Origin: Rhodococcus sp. HNM0563
Lineage (GTDB): Bacteria; Actinomycetota; Actinomycetes; Mycobacteriales; Mycobacteriaceae
DNA length: 64,000 nt
Assembly: GCF_012726195.1 (NCBI RefSeq)
Contig: NZ_JAASAF010000013.1
Span: 62,001-126,000 of the forward strand
Reading direction: 5' to 3'
Every line of letters begins with the position of its first letter. Within the stretch, counting starts at the first letter, position 1. Position numbers and translations under genes: made by a program. This document shows positions 49,053 through 53,677 of this stretch, in pieces. Below the pieces are notes generated by a model. It was not told where the DNA came from and made no database searches. It worked only from the letters and a program-made list of their open reading frames with translations.

Positions 49053-49106
49053 CTGCGGTAACAGGCGAATCTGCGGAAATTTCGAACTCTGCGGGAACTT
49101 TTCGCC
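49053..49106 (+). promoter_or_regulatory. Three 18-bp-phased CTGCGG direct repeats
   Basis: CTGCGGTAA (49053), CTGCGGAAA (49071) and CTGCGGGAA (49089) recur at exactly 18-bp intervals, on nearly the same DNA face, about 80-130 bp upstream of the Ser-rich gene. The 330-bp divergent region (48857-49186) has no gene. These look like tandem binding sites for an activator or repressor of the envelope Hsp70 cluster. Confidence 0.5.
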
Positions 49107-49186
49107 CCGCCGGCGCCTCATATCACCGACACACACGAACGCCCCGTCACCGGCGCCCGAACGTACCGATGGAAAGTGAGCACACC

Positions 49187-50212
49187 ATGACCAGCGGATT
49201 CTTCTCCAACACTTCGGCCGACTCCGCCACCGAGTCCACCGACAGCACCCGCTCCGACAGCAACTTCGGCGCCGCAGCATCCGGGCAGGCCGCAGAGTCG
49301 ACCGACAGCACCCGCTCGGACTCGTCGTTCGGCTCGACCGCGTCCTCCACAGACTCCGCGTCCGCCGCGAGCGACCGCGCCGATTCGTCGTACGGTTCCG
49401 GTTCCACGTACGACAGCGACTCGTCCTTCGGATCGTCGTCGGCCAGCGACCAGGGCTCCGTGAGCTACGAATCGTACGAGCGTTACGAGCGGTACGACTC
49501 GTCGGGCTCGAGCAGCTCCGACTCGTCGTACGGATCAGCGAGCGACAGCGGCTCGTCGGCCTCGGTCGGTGCGTCCTCTTCTGCGTCCGATTCGAGCAAC
49601 AGGGCCTCGTCGTCCGATTCCGCCAACGCAGGCGCCTCCTCCTCGGCTACTGATTCCGCCGACCGCTCCTCCGCGTTCGACACCGGTGTCACCGGTTCGA
49701 ACTCGTCGGCTTCCAACTCGAGCGACCGCGCCGCGTCTTCCAGCTCGAGCGAGACAGGTGCGGCGGCGTCGGGCAACCCCGGTTCCGCACCGGCCGGCGC
49801 GTCCGGCTCCGGGCCGGTGGTCGTCGACGAGTACTCGGGTTCGGACGGAGCCCAGTACGTCGACTACGACACCGACGGCGACGGCATGGTGGATCTGACC
49901 ACCGTCGACCTCGAAGGTGACGGCCGCATCGACGCCAACATCAGCGACAGCGACGGCGACGGCGTGCTCGACCAGATCTCGATGGACACCAACGGTGACG
50001 GGCTGATCGACATATCCGCGATCGACTCCGATGCCGACGGCAGCCTCGATGTCGCCGCGATCGATGCCGATGGCGACGGCGAGGTCGACGCCGTGATCGA
50101 CCTGCACACCGGCGCAGTGGACTACGACGGTGACGGCGCTGCCGACGACTACGTCGACGTCAGCGAGTTCGGTACCGGCAGCAACTCCGAGTACAACACC
50201 GACCTCGCCTGA
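49187..50212 (+). CDS. Ser-rich low-complexity protein with Asp/Gly calcium-like repeats
   Basis: The 341-aa protein opens MTSGFFSNTSADSATES. Residues about 10-215 are a Ser/Ala/Asp low-complexity region with STDSTRSDSNFG-like repeats and SYERYERYDSS. Residues about 225-330 form at least five tandem units of about 10-20 residues carrying DxDGDG cores (YDTDGDGMVD, DSDGDGVLDQ, DTNGDGLIDI, DADGDGEVD, DYDGDGAADD), which usually bind calcium. No signal peptide is seen. An in-frame ATG at 49169 is possible. It is the first gene of a co-directional cluster with a GrpE-like and an Hsp70-like gene. Confidence 0.8.
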   Translation: MTSGFFSNTSADSATESTDSTRSDSNFGAAASGQAAESTDSTRSDSSFGSTASSTDSASAASDRADSSYGSGSTYDSDSSFGSSSASDQGSVSYESYERYERYDSSGSSSSDSSYGSASDSGSSASVGASSSASDSSNRASSSDSANAGASSSATDSADRSSAFDTGVTGSNSSASNSSDRAASSSSSETGAAASGNPGSAPAGASGSGPVVVDEYSGSDGAQYVDYDTDGDGMVDLTTVDLEGDGRIDANISDSDGDGVLDQISMDTNGDGLIDISAIDSDADGSLDVAAIDADGDGEVDAVIDLHTGAVDYDGDGAADDYVDVSEFGTGSNSEYNTDLA

Positions 50213-50218
50213 GCTGTC

Positions 50219-50527
50219 ATGACAACCGATGATGCAGGTACGACTCCGATCACCGATCGGATCGACGACCTGATCACCGCGGCCGACGTGGCAGCAGAGG
50301 GCGAAGAGCGCACCGGCATCATCGACCGACTCGCCGGGATGGGAGTCGAACGCGTGACCGCGCCGGTGGGCACGCCGTTCGACCCCACCCTCCACCGTGT
50401 CGTCGCGAGGGTGCCCGCACCGCGCGAGGCGGACGTGAACACGATCGAGCAGACCGTCCGAGCAGGCTGGCGGCATCGTGGTCATATGATCCGCTACGTC
50501 GAAGTGAAGGTACGAGTGCACCGATGA
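50219..50527 (+). CDS. Minimal GrpE-like protein (head domain only)
   Basis: The 102-aa protein has a short helical N-terminus (TPITDRIDDLITAADVA). It then carries GMGVERVTAPVGTPFDPTLH and a segment ending GWRHRGHMIRYVEVKV, matching the beta-domain of GrpE (G...i...G..FDP..H.av, then V..v...Gy...grvlRpa.V.V). The long coiled coil of normal GrpE (about 190 aa) is missing. GrpE heads contact the Hsp70 nucleotide-binding domain and promote ADP release, so this is probably the exchange factor for the Hsp70-like protein encoded 19 nt downstream. Confidence 0.75.
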   Translation: MTTDDAGTTPITDRIDDLITAADVAAEGEERTGIIDRLAGMGVERVTAPVGTPFDPTLHRVVARVPAPREADVNTIEQTVRAGWRHRGHMIRYVEVKVRVHR

Positions 50528-50546
50528 CAATGAGGGAGAACTACCG

Positions 50547-52337
50547 ATGAGCTGGGTCCTAGCGGTCGACTTCGGCACGTCCAACACCGCCGCGGCACAC
50601 CGAATCGGACCTGACCGAGTCGAGACGCTCCCACTGACGCACACGGGCAATGCCCTGCCGTCCTCGGTTTTCGTCGGCCCGTATGCGATGTCCACCGGAG
50701 ACGTGGCGTTCAACCAGGCCTCGCTCGACCCCGCCGGATTCGTGGTCGCACCGAAGTCACTGGTCGTTGCCGGTGGCATCGTCGTTCGGGACCGGGAAGT
50801 TGCCGTCTCATCGATCATCGCGGCAGTACTGCGCACCGTGTACGGGCAAGCACTTCGACGCCACAACAACGAACCGCCGGCCGAGGTCGTGCTCACCCAT
50901 CCGGAGGCGTGGTCGTCACGAGAATTGTCGGTGCTGCGCGAGGCAGCATCGATCGCGGGGCTCGGTGGAAGTGTCTCGCTGATCTCCGAACCGCGCGCGG
51001 CGGCCTTCTACTACTCACGCCAGCACGACGCGAAGATCGTGAAGGGCTCGACGATCGCCGTGTTCGACTTCGGTGGCGGAACCCTCGATGTGGCCGTCCT
51101 CACCGCAACGAACGAGTGGACCTTCGAGGTTCTGCGTGCCGGAGGCGACAACGCCCTCGGAGGCAAGAGTCTCGACGGTGCGATAGCCCGATGGGTAGAC
51201 CAGCATCTGGCCGAGGACGATCCGCAGCTCGCAGCGTGGCTGCGCACACCGGAGGGTCTCGAGACCCGACGCACTCTCGACGATCAGATCCGCAAGGCGA
51301 AAGAGCTCCTCTCGGAAGCTCCGTCGGCGACGATCCGGGTCAGGGGCAACGGGTCGGACAAGACCCTGACTCTCACGCGGGACGAATTCGAGCAACTGAT
51401 CGAACCGCAGATCACCCGCGCCGTACAGCTGGCCCGCGGAGTGTTGCACGACTCGGGCATCGGAAGCGGCGGCCTGCAGGCGCTGTACCTGACCGGTGGC
51501 TCGTCCCGGATTCCCTACGTGCACCGCAGATTGGCCGAGCTCGGACCGATCGCCACACTGGACGACCCGAAAACCGTCGTCGCGAAGGGCGCCGCCGGGT
51601 TCGTCGCAGGTGGTCGCGCCACCGACCCTCCCGCGATGGTCGACACCGAGGTGCTCGAACGGAGGCCGGCCGGGAACACCGCGTCCGCTCCCCCGCCGCC
51701 TGCCTCGTTCGTCAAACCGAATGCCGGTTCATCGGCGCCGACACGAACCAACCGGAAGACACTGGCACTCGCCGGAGGAGCTGTGGTGGCCGTCGCGATC
51801 GCAGCGGCAGGCTTCTACTACGGCACGCAGGACGACGCGCTGGCCTCAGAAGTCACCGCGACAACCGCCGAAGCCCCACCGGACAACGGCGGGAAGCCCC
51901 CGGCCACTTCCGACTCGAGCTACACCAGCGAGACCTACGACGATGTGACCGCGCTACTTCCGCGAAAGCTCATCGACGCGAGCTCCGAATGCAACAACTC
52001 GGGATTCAGCACCCAGGGGGCCTTGCAGATCCGCTGCCTGGTCAATCCTGATTCCTCGCTCGGTCGAGCGATCGGCATGGAGAAGAACGACTACGAGTCG
52101 GTCACCGCGTGGCGTGACGACCAATACGCGCGCTCGAATTTCATACGCCTGCGCGACAGCAACGACGGAAATACCAAGATCGTCTCGCCGGACAACAACC
52201 GCATCATCGATCAAGGCCGGGACGGCACCTACTTCACGGCCATAGACCGATCGACGGGACTCCTCATCCAATTCTCCACCGACTCGGCCGACCAGGGAAT
52301 GACTCTGCTCACCGAAATCGGTTTCGCACCTGCCTGA
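50547..52337 (+). CDS. Membrane-anchored Hsp70-like ATPase with extracytoplasmic domain
   Basis: Residues 1-365 form an actin/Hsp70 ATPase: phosphate-1 loop LAVDFGTSNTAAAH, phosphate-2 IAVFDFGGGTLDVAV, adenosine motif LTGGSSRIPYVHRRLAELG. The classical Hsp70 substrate-binding domain is absent. Instead a Pro-rich linker leads to a TM helix (about 405-427, LALAGGAVVAVAIAAAGF) and a roughly 150-aa external domain with two Cys (SSECNNSG, QIRCLVNP) that may form a disulfide. It could transmit an envelope signal to, or anchor, a cytoplasmic chaperone cycle. GGGAG precedes the ATG. Confidence 0.88.
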   Translation: MSWVLAVDFGTSNTAAAHRIGPDRVETLPLTHTGNALPSSVFVGPYAMSTGDVAFNQASLDPAGFVVAPKSLVVAGGIVVRDREVAVSSIIAAVLRTVYGQALRRHNNEPPAEVVLTHPEAWSSRELSVLREAASIAGLGGSVSLISEPRAAAFYYSRQHDAKIVKGSTIAVFDFGGGTLDVAVLTATNEWTFEVLRAGGDNALGGKSLDGAIARWVDQHLAEDDPQLAAWLRTPEGLETRRTLDDQIRKAKELLSEAPSATIRVRGNGSDKTLTLTRDEFEQLIEPQITRAVQLARGVLHDSGIGSGGLQALYLTGGSSRIPYVHRRLAELGPIATLDDPKTVVAKGAAGFVAGGRATDPPAMVDTEVLERRPAGNTASAPPPPASFVKPNAGSSAPTRTNRKTLALAGGAVVAVAIAAAGFYYGTQDDALASEVTATTAEAPPDNGGKPPATSDSSYTSETYDDVTALLPRKLIDASSECNNSGFSTQGALQIRCLVNPDSSLGRAIGMEKNDYESVTAWRDDQYARSNFIRLRDSNDGNTKIVSPDNNRIIDQGRDGTYFTAIDRSTGLLIQFSTDSADQGMTLLTEIGFAPA

Positions 52338-52387
52338 CCCACCTCACGCCACCTGCACTGATTGCAGGACAAGGAGTATCGACTACC

Positions 52388-53677
52388 ATGCGTACCTCAC
52401 GCAGCCTTATCGCCGCCACCGCTGTCACTCTGGCACTCGCCGGCTGCAGCACCACTTCCGAGGGCACCGCACTCGCCGAAGGGGAGGCAAACGAAAACGG
52501 CAGCACCACCGGAACGTTCGATATCGCAGCACTCGACACGGGGGAATACAGAATCGAACCCCGCGACTTCATCGCCGAAGGCCAGGCGGCCGGGGATTTC
52601 GGTCCCGCAGTCGAAGGTCAGCGCATGGCCGAGTTCGTGATTCACCCCTACACGATCGACCCCACGCTCACCAACGGTGGTGGCATGTCGACAGGTGTCG
52701 GTGTCGGCGGAATCGGCAAGGTCCTCAGCGGCGGCGGTGCCCCCGAGGTGGCCGAATCGTACGGGGTCATCACGGGATTCGGCAGTTTCAGCGGTAAACC
52801 CGATGGCTCCCGTCAGCTCGGTGTCGCGGTGTGGCGGTTCCCCGACGCAGACAGCGCCTCGCAGGCTGCTGCCGCCCTGCACGCCAACGCACTCGCCCCG
52901 GAGGATGACGGATTCGCTGCGGGACCGCAGACACCGGTATCGATCCCGCAACTGCCCGACACCTTCGCAACGACCTACTACTGGGAGAGCCTCGACACCG
53001 CAAGCATGTCGACTTTCACCGCGCGGGGACCACACGTGGTCTACACCTACACTTCCGCGGAAAACAATGATGTCGAGTGGGCCTCGGACACCACGGCTCG
53101 TGCCCTCGAAGAGCAGCTTCCGCGGATCGAGCAGTTTCCGTTCTCACCGACCGACGAAATCGAGTCGCTTCCGGTCGACCTCGACAAGGTCCTCGCGCGC
53201 GCGGTCGGGTACACCGAGAACGAGTACGCCAGGAACTCCGACACAGCAGTCTACGGGCCGCTCGGATGGCTGCACTTCGATTCGCATCCCGCGGAGACGG
53301 CCGACATCTTCGAAGCCACCGGCACCGACCGTGTCGCGTTGGCCAATTCGACCGTCTACCGCACCAGCGGGCCCGAAGCCGCCCGCGAACTGCGCGACGC
53401 GTTCCGCGAGCAGAGCCGCGAAACCTACCCTGACCTGGTCGACGAACCTGCGCCACAGGGTGTTCCCGACACCCTCTGCCGTGCCGGCGATATCGCTGAG
53501 GGCAGGTTGATGGACTGCATGATGATCTACGGTCCGTACGTCGCTCAGCTCATCGGACATCGCGCGGTCGGGAACACCGACCCCGACGATGACACCCTGC
53601 GGACGATGCCGCAACGAGTGGCCACCCAGTACACGAAGTTCGTCCGCGCAGAGGAGCTGGGGCTCGGCGAGAACTGA
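52388..53677 (+). CDS. Putative lipoprotein (DUF7373-like)
   Basis: The 429-aa protein has a lipoprotein signal with lipobox LALAGC (lipidated Cys20), then a soluble domain. Segments include VAVWRFPDADSASQAAAALH, YGPLGWLHFDSHPAETADIF and CMMIYGPYVAQLIG. It resembles actinobacterial lipoproteins annotated DUF7373, of unknown role. AAGGAG is upstream. It lies 50 bp after the membrane Hsp70 gene, so both external parts would meet at the outer face of the membrane. Confidence 0.8.
   Translation: MRTSRSLIAATAVTLALAGCSTTSEGTALAEGEANENGSTTGTFDIAALDTGEYRIEPRDFIAEGQAAGDFGPAVEGQRMAEFVIHPYTIDPTLTNGGGMSTGVGVGGIGKVLSGGGAPEVAESYGVITGFGSFSGKPDGSRQLGVAVWRFPDADSASQAAAALHANALAPEDDGFAAGPQTPVSIPQLPDTFATTYYWESLDTASMSTFTARGPHVVYTYTSAENNDVEWASDTTARALEEQLPRIEQFPFSPTDEIESLPVDLDKVLARAVGYTENEYARNSDTAVYGPLGWLHFDSHPAETADIFEATGTDRVALANSTVYRTSGPEAARELRDAFREQSRETYPDLVDEPAPQGVPDTLCRAGDIAEGRLMDCMMIYGPYVAQLIGHRAVGNTDPDDDTLRTMPQRVATQYTKFVRAEELGLGEN

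Follow-up and report, generated by a model that had tools for sequence, protein, structure and literature searches.

A four-gene cluster with a GrpE head and a membrane Hsp70

In a 64,000-nucleotide stretch of the Rhodococcus sp. HNM0563 genome (contig NZ_JAASAF010000013.1, positions 62,001 to 126,000; hereafter the window, in whose numbering positions are given), four co-directional genes, A, B, C and D, form one run. They encode a Ser-rich protein with Asp repeats, a GrpE reduced to its head, a membrane-anchored Hsp70 ATPase that lacks a substrate-binding domain (SBD), and a lipoprotein. The original prediction had read the same composition from the window, including a transmembrane (TM) helix and an external Cys-bearing domain in the Hsp70, and our analysis confirms it. 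The features are as follows, all on the + strand:

49093..49123, +: promoter-like motif GGGAACNTTT-N15-TCNYAY, 45 nt 5' of the ATG at 49169
49169..50212, +: gene A, 347 aa, rich in Ser and carrying DxDGDG repeats (alternative start 49187)
50219..50527, +: gene B, GrpE head, 102 aa (Pfam, predicted fold)
50547..52337, +: gene C, membrane Hsp70 without an SBD, 596 aa; the ATPase domain is followed by a TM helix and an external domain
51759..51815, +: residues 405-423 of C, TM helix by hydropathy
51894..52328, +: external domain of C, residues 450-594 (Cys482 and Cys497 invariant; mean pLDDT 88.9)
52388..53677, +: gene D, DUF7373 lipoprotein, 429 aa (Pfam, lipobox)

The product of gene B, previously suggested to be a GrpE, matches the Pfam GrpE family at 33.4 bits against a cut-off of 25.8. 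Its structure has the GrpE head fold, with short helices (11-24 and 29-40 only) and a beta domain, and at 102 aa it lacks the long N-terminal paired helix of GrpE; in fold and sequence it is close to DnaK-bound GrpE. Three heads from other loci begin with a hydrophobic, TM-like segment (L049 7040-7477, L050 7526-7996 and L084 6193-6702) and seem to be membrane-anchored themselves.

Gene C lies 19 nt downstream of gene B. Its product matches Pfam Hsp70 at 113.5 bits, with the match stopping at position 369 of the 599-position profile, and its alignment retains the Asp, Lys, Glu and GGGT motifs of the nucleotide site, positions with catalytic roles in Hsp70 proteins. No substrate-binding domain was matched by Pfam in C, in its near-identical L040 copy or in 33 other Hsp70s from the neighbourhoods examined. 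Among the Hsp70-like proteins near heads, a TM segment was found by hydropathy in 26 of 34 and a match to the DnaK substrate domain in 0 of 34. At one locus with a head and dynamins, the C-terminal part of an SBD-less Hsp70 (L184 11013-13526) matches PQQ-type beta-propeller models.

The external domain of C found no match in a profile search against PDB sequences, five copies of it matched 0 Pfam families at E values up to 10, and its best Foldseek match was weak (E 0.091). The C frame of L041 is broken; this sequence was used as translated in one alignment (A2) and omitted from another (A7), which also omits L060, L062 and L081. An internal nucleotide-using domain, a TM helix and a possibly similar external fold recall receptor kinases of the PknH type. 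C might therefore be a PknH-like receptor in which an Hsp70 ATPase replaces the kinase, so that an external ligand would act through the TM helix on an internal ATPase switch, and any link to dynamins would be secondary; we regard this as quite unlikely.

The protein encoded by gene A has no hydrophobic stretch and no Pfam match up to E 1, DUF6802 included; Asp-repeat neighbours of heads at two other loci (L146 and L175) do match DUF6802. Its Asp repeats occur in five copies at an exact 39-nt spacing, and chance composition was rejected as their origin on this ground. Gene D carries a lipobox and two DUF7373 domains (164.4 and 69.9 bits; Pfam cut-off 27), and the DUF7373 profile reached a best E value of only 0.12 against PDB sequences. 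We found no paper on DUF7373 or DUF6802 among the PubMed Central papers searched, although other wording or subscription journals may hold one.

Conservation of the cluster in the genus

We searched B against 151 genomes (its own and those of relatives) at a threshold of E 1e-5 and obtained matches in 18, including 10 of the 18 genomes of the genus; at least one of these 18 matches (G113) is a canonical GrpE, encoded next to dnaK. R. erythropolis also has a named head-like protein. Genes A, B, C and D occur together in 7 of the 10 head-carrying genus genomes (the window, L040, L041, L042, L046, L047 and L048), which bears out the conserved co-occurrence on which the original prediction depended. 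In the remaining three, two stretches reach contig ends (L044 and L045) and one lacks C in the stretch taken (L043). Among the 18 loci from this search, 17 carry a system-type head (as defined below), with Hsp70 at 12, an Asp-repeat frame at 15 and DUF7373 at 7.

In four of the seven four-gene genomes the head has a pair of dynamin-like genes no more than 5 kb away; the distance from B to the nearest dynamin is 1.2 kb in L042 and 4.4-4.5 kb in L046, L047 and L048. R. yananensis (L042/L059) has the arrangement dynA-dynB-A-B-C-D, with the dynamin pair directly upstream, and a neighbouring gene resembles a neighbour of the window cluster that we take to be fadB-like. The R. yananensis pair is related to one on contig C22 of the window genome (DynB 67% and DynA 55% identical).

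That C22 cluster (L017) is one of three in the same genome that resemble the window cluster in part. It comprises dynA-dynB, a short Hsp70 gene with a C-terminal TM segment, and genes for an Asp-repeat protein, a small acidic protein and a sigma factor of the extracytoplasmic function (ECF) type. On contig C12 (L015) a second dynamin pair lies between dnaK-grpE-dnaJ and an Hsp70-like gene; two head-lacking relatives that we judged mycobacteria-like from genus size and gene content (G045 and G067) have a pair of this type with an Hsp70-like gene close by. On contig C3 (L013), A-like and C-like genes are accompanied by a divergent D-like gene; no head was detected in this cluster, and the place that the head takes up in the window, between the A-like and the C-like gene, is filled by about 1.5 kb of small unconvincing frames (L013 8540-10050). 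The small acidic protein of C22 (L017 5620-5937), encoded between the Asp-repeat and ECF sigma genes, has the motif ...PDDVW...DP... and belongs to no Pfam family; by eye, similar small acidic proteins occur at L045, L055, L081, L083, L235 and L247. It could be an anti-sigma factor or an adaptor.

Linkage of the head to paired dynamins across Actinobacteria

Bacterial dynamins remodel membranes, and IniA and IniC are tied to drug-induced envelope stress. A head profile was run over 397 genomes of the order and 296 of the class, with matches taken at E 1e-7 or better; at least 288 and at least 154 of these genomes, respectively, have matches, in which canonical GrpE and system-type heads are mixed, and the counts are lower bounds, about 10-13 first-look candidates having been scored per genome. 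Most of the weak matches starting around profile position 30 are canonical GrpE, and a match starting at position 16 or earlier was counted as a system-type head. The wide sample comprised 60 stretches around strong matches, hand-picked for spread over families and not random; linkage counts rest on six-frame profile matches, not on gene calls, which came from a simple composition-based caller whose starts are often too far upstream.

System-type heads were present in 55 of the 60 stretches, covering 12 families. A dynamin-like GTPase gene lies within 2.5 kb of 54 of these 55 heads, and in 47 of the 55 loci the head stands between two dynamins. Within 6 kb there is an Hsp70-like gene at 20/55, an Asp-repeat frame at 30/55 and DUF7373 at 0/55. 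One of the five stretches below the system-type cut (L191) has a dynamin, and 20 control loci of the canonical type, taken from weak matches, have a dynamin at 0/20 and a DnaK-like gene at 19/20. Beyond the window's own family, the regular neighbour of the head is thus the dynamin pair, and the earlier hint that iniBAC-like or dynamin-linked clusters should be compared proved well placed.

In a weakly resolved tree of 101 heads (99 columns, seven duplicate rows excluded), the window head falls in an 18-row group (support 99/92) that includes the L055 and L084 heads from dynamin/Hsp70 clusters; system-type heads, which may or may not have a single origin, require two changes on this tree, and one change in 14% of bootstrap trees. 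We also considered whether B is a decayed housekeeping GrpE and rejected this, as it is 81-85% identical to the heads of its closest relatives and stands apart in the tree from the housekeeping GrpE of its own genome.

The original prediction had taken the four genes for an envelope chaperone or assembly system that stands on its own, without dynamins. The four genes do lack dynamin neighbours in the window and in L040 and L041, and R. zopfii (L060) and a further locus, L062, have C and D side by side but no head. Against this, C has no substrate domain, the other four of the seven four-gene clusters have a dynamin pair no more than 5 kb away, and the head outside the window's own family keeps company with dynamins; this view was not supported in that form, and we consider it very unlikely. 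The accompanying statement that no J-protein is present is true of the window and fails for some relatives, in which a J-domain protein is found near the dynamins. Such proteins, with hydrophobic peaks, occur near the dynamin pair in family f15 (L172 12619-13971, L199 10464-12317, L200 12404-13672, L201 2417-3763 and, cut, L193 1-345), and it is possible that they are the third part of an Hsp70 cycle.

A promoter-like motif common to the clusters

The motif was read off the regions upstream of A (window, L013, L040, L041, L047 and L048) and of the Asp gene of L017. The 5.54-Mb genome of the window strain has exactly three matches to it, all 5' of Asp-repeat genes: at the window cluster, at the C3 paralogue and at the C22 dynamin cluster. 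The motif common to the window and a dynamin cluster argues further against an envelope system independent of dynamins. Across the 18 genus genomes there are 12 matches, and 0 for a reversed-pattern control; they precede an Asp-repeat gene in nine cases (in one of these, L234, the frame is broken and the gene was assigned by its A-like start), a membrane Hsp70 gene in one and a small membrane protein gene in two. Five of the 12 (L230, L231, L235, L237 and L238) are independent of the derivation of the pattern, and these stand before two Asp-repeat genes, one Hsp70 gene and two small membrane protein genes. The last two, at L231 and L238, encode proteins of 136-169 aa that may belong to the CD225/dispanin family.

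Among 121 family genomes, 22 matches were found, again with 0 for the reversed control. Outside the genus there are 17 of these, and the frame that follows the motif first encodes an Asp-repeat protein in nine, a GrpE head in one (L246) and, by eye, a small acidic protein resembling that of C22 in one (L247). A looser form of the motif precedes the Asp gene in L042, L081 and L083 and the head in L049. At L235, which in SMB37 corresponds to C22, Asp-repeat, small acidic and sigma-like genes come after the motif, an arrangement like that of an autoregulated ECF operon. The clusters share a promoter-like motif, as members of one ECF-sigma regulon would, and the C22 ECF sigma factor is probably its reader.

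Discussion

We propose that the window cluster is among the operons of a membrane-stress regulon centred on paired dynamin-like GTPases, a sigma-controlled module in which the membrane Hsp70 ATPase and the GrpE head would act on dynamin assemblies; we give this reading an even chance. Envelope damage, which we infer to be the signal, would lead an ECF sigma factor to read the GGGAAC promoter and so turn on the genes for the Asp-repeat protein, the GrpE head, the membrane Hsp70 and the lipoprotein; this sigma factor is probably that of the C22 dynamin cluster. The anchored Hsp70 ATPase would cycle ATP at the membrane, and the GrpE head would either reset it or bridge it to the dynamins. We further infer that this cycle would load dynamin assemblies or take them apart, and that such assemblies seal or remodel the membrane. 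On C the external domain, together with the lipoprotein, may sense or hold the wall side, and the Asp-repeat protein may be an acidic partner, perhaps one that binds divalent cations.

Several observations weigh against this proposal. A search for dynamins found none in the whole 64-kb window, and none is present in its two closest relatives, within the 15.0-kb stretch of L040 and the 9.0-kb contig of L041. Among the relatives of the window more generally, a dynamin lies within 2.5 kb of only 7 of 17 heads, and the head stands between two dynamins in 2 of 17. Six of the 17 motif matches outside the genus stand before something else. The IIB hairpin of C is seven residues shorter than that of DnaK, so GrpE-type exchange may be weakened. 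In family f14, moreover, the head and dynamin pair occur with Hsp70 absent within 6 kb in 24/24 loci; a membrane Hsp70 may therefore be dispensable for the head.

The last two observations would suit a different arrangement, in which the head serves the housekeeping DnaK and brings it to the dynamins, the membrane Hsp70-like proteins being optional; the closeness of B to DnaK-bound GrpE also favours it. However, Hsp70 matches limited to the ATPase part were found elsewhere in the genome in all 18 f14 genomes tested, Hsp70-like genes lie near 20/55 heads in the wide sample and 12/17 among the relatives, and B and C are near neighbours in the window. We consider service to DnaK unlikely. At the level of whole genomes, head presence and SBD-less Hsp70s were not tied to each other, as four genomes in which the profile scan scored no system-type head (G045, G067, G116 and G125) also have ATPase-part-only Hsp70 matches.

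The proposed module shares features with several known systems. The iniBAC system of mycobacteria comprises the dynamins IniA and IniC, IniB and the regulator IniR, an AAA+/LuxR-type protein, and is tied to envelope stress (PMC5760070); IniA is dynamin-like (PMC6715688). Our system resembles iniBAC in having a dynamin pair at its loci, including four of the four-gene relatives, and the window genome itself has such a pair near dnaK. By sequence, LuxR-type regulators of 810-1419 aa (gene caller), comparable to IniR, stand divergently beside the dynamins at 9 of the 60 head loci (L161, L172, L178, L193, L195, L197, L199, L200 and L201); all four that were scanned match LuxR (GerE) above the cut-off, with AAA below the cut-off in three. 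In contrast to iniBAC, the window cluster lacks a dynamin and IniB and has another promoter motif. The mycobacterial-type loci examined, L225-L229, showed no GrpE head. Paired dynamins are also known as Streptomyces DynA/DynB and Campylobacter DLP1/2 (PMC6104087), which likewise have two dynamin-like genes side by side; that paper makes no mention of GrpE, whereas here a head usually stands between the pair. Like the DnaK-GrpE-DnaJ machine, the window system joins an ATPase domain to an exchange-factor head, but it lacks the substrate domain and the long GrpE helix, is membrane-anchored and lies outside the dnaK operon.

GTPase-centric GAP1-N2 conflict systems come close in composition: an Hsp70, a GrpE and a second SBD-less Hsp70 are reported in about 14% of GAP1-N2 neighbourhoods, mostly in actinobacteria and firmicutes, with a J-domain in some (Kaur et al. 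2020, PMC7159879). The GTPases here are dynamin-like, and the GrpE is a single head of about 100-160 aa. We considered whether the window holds a conflict or defence system of this type and rejected it as highly improbable, since Pfam showed no GAP1 family in A-D or among the 18 neighbourhood proteins that were scanned, although no search of the padloc library was made. No paper joining GrpE with bacterial dynamins was found among the PubMed Central papers searched, though other wording or subscription journals may hold one; therefore, as far as could be searched, we place the system as an undescribed variant of the dynamin-pair/iniBAC kind that is widespread in actinobacteria.

A stronger form of our proposal, which we put forward tentatively and hold to be somewhat doubtful, is an Hsp70-powered dynamin machine, in which an SBD-less anchored Hsp70 and a stripped GrpE head would, through a cycle driven by ATP, assemble or disassemble paired dynamins on the membrane under one ECF sigma factor. 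The uncoating of clathrin by Hsc70 in animal cells offers an analogy. If this form is true, the head would be the first known Hsp70 exchange factor dedicated to dynamins. A head kept between the dynamin genes in many actinobacteria, often with SBD-less membrane Hsp70s close by, supplies concrete candidate regulators of dynamin assembly, and the promoter-like motif delimits a small, defined candidate regulon.
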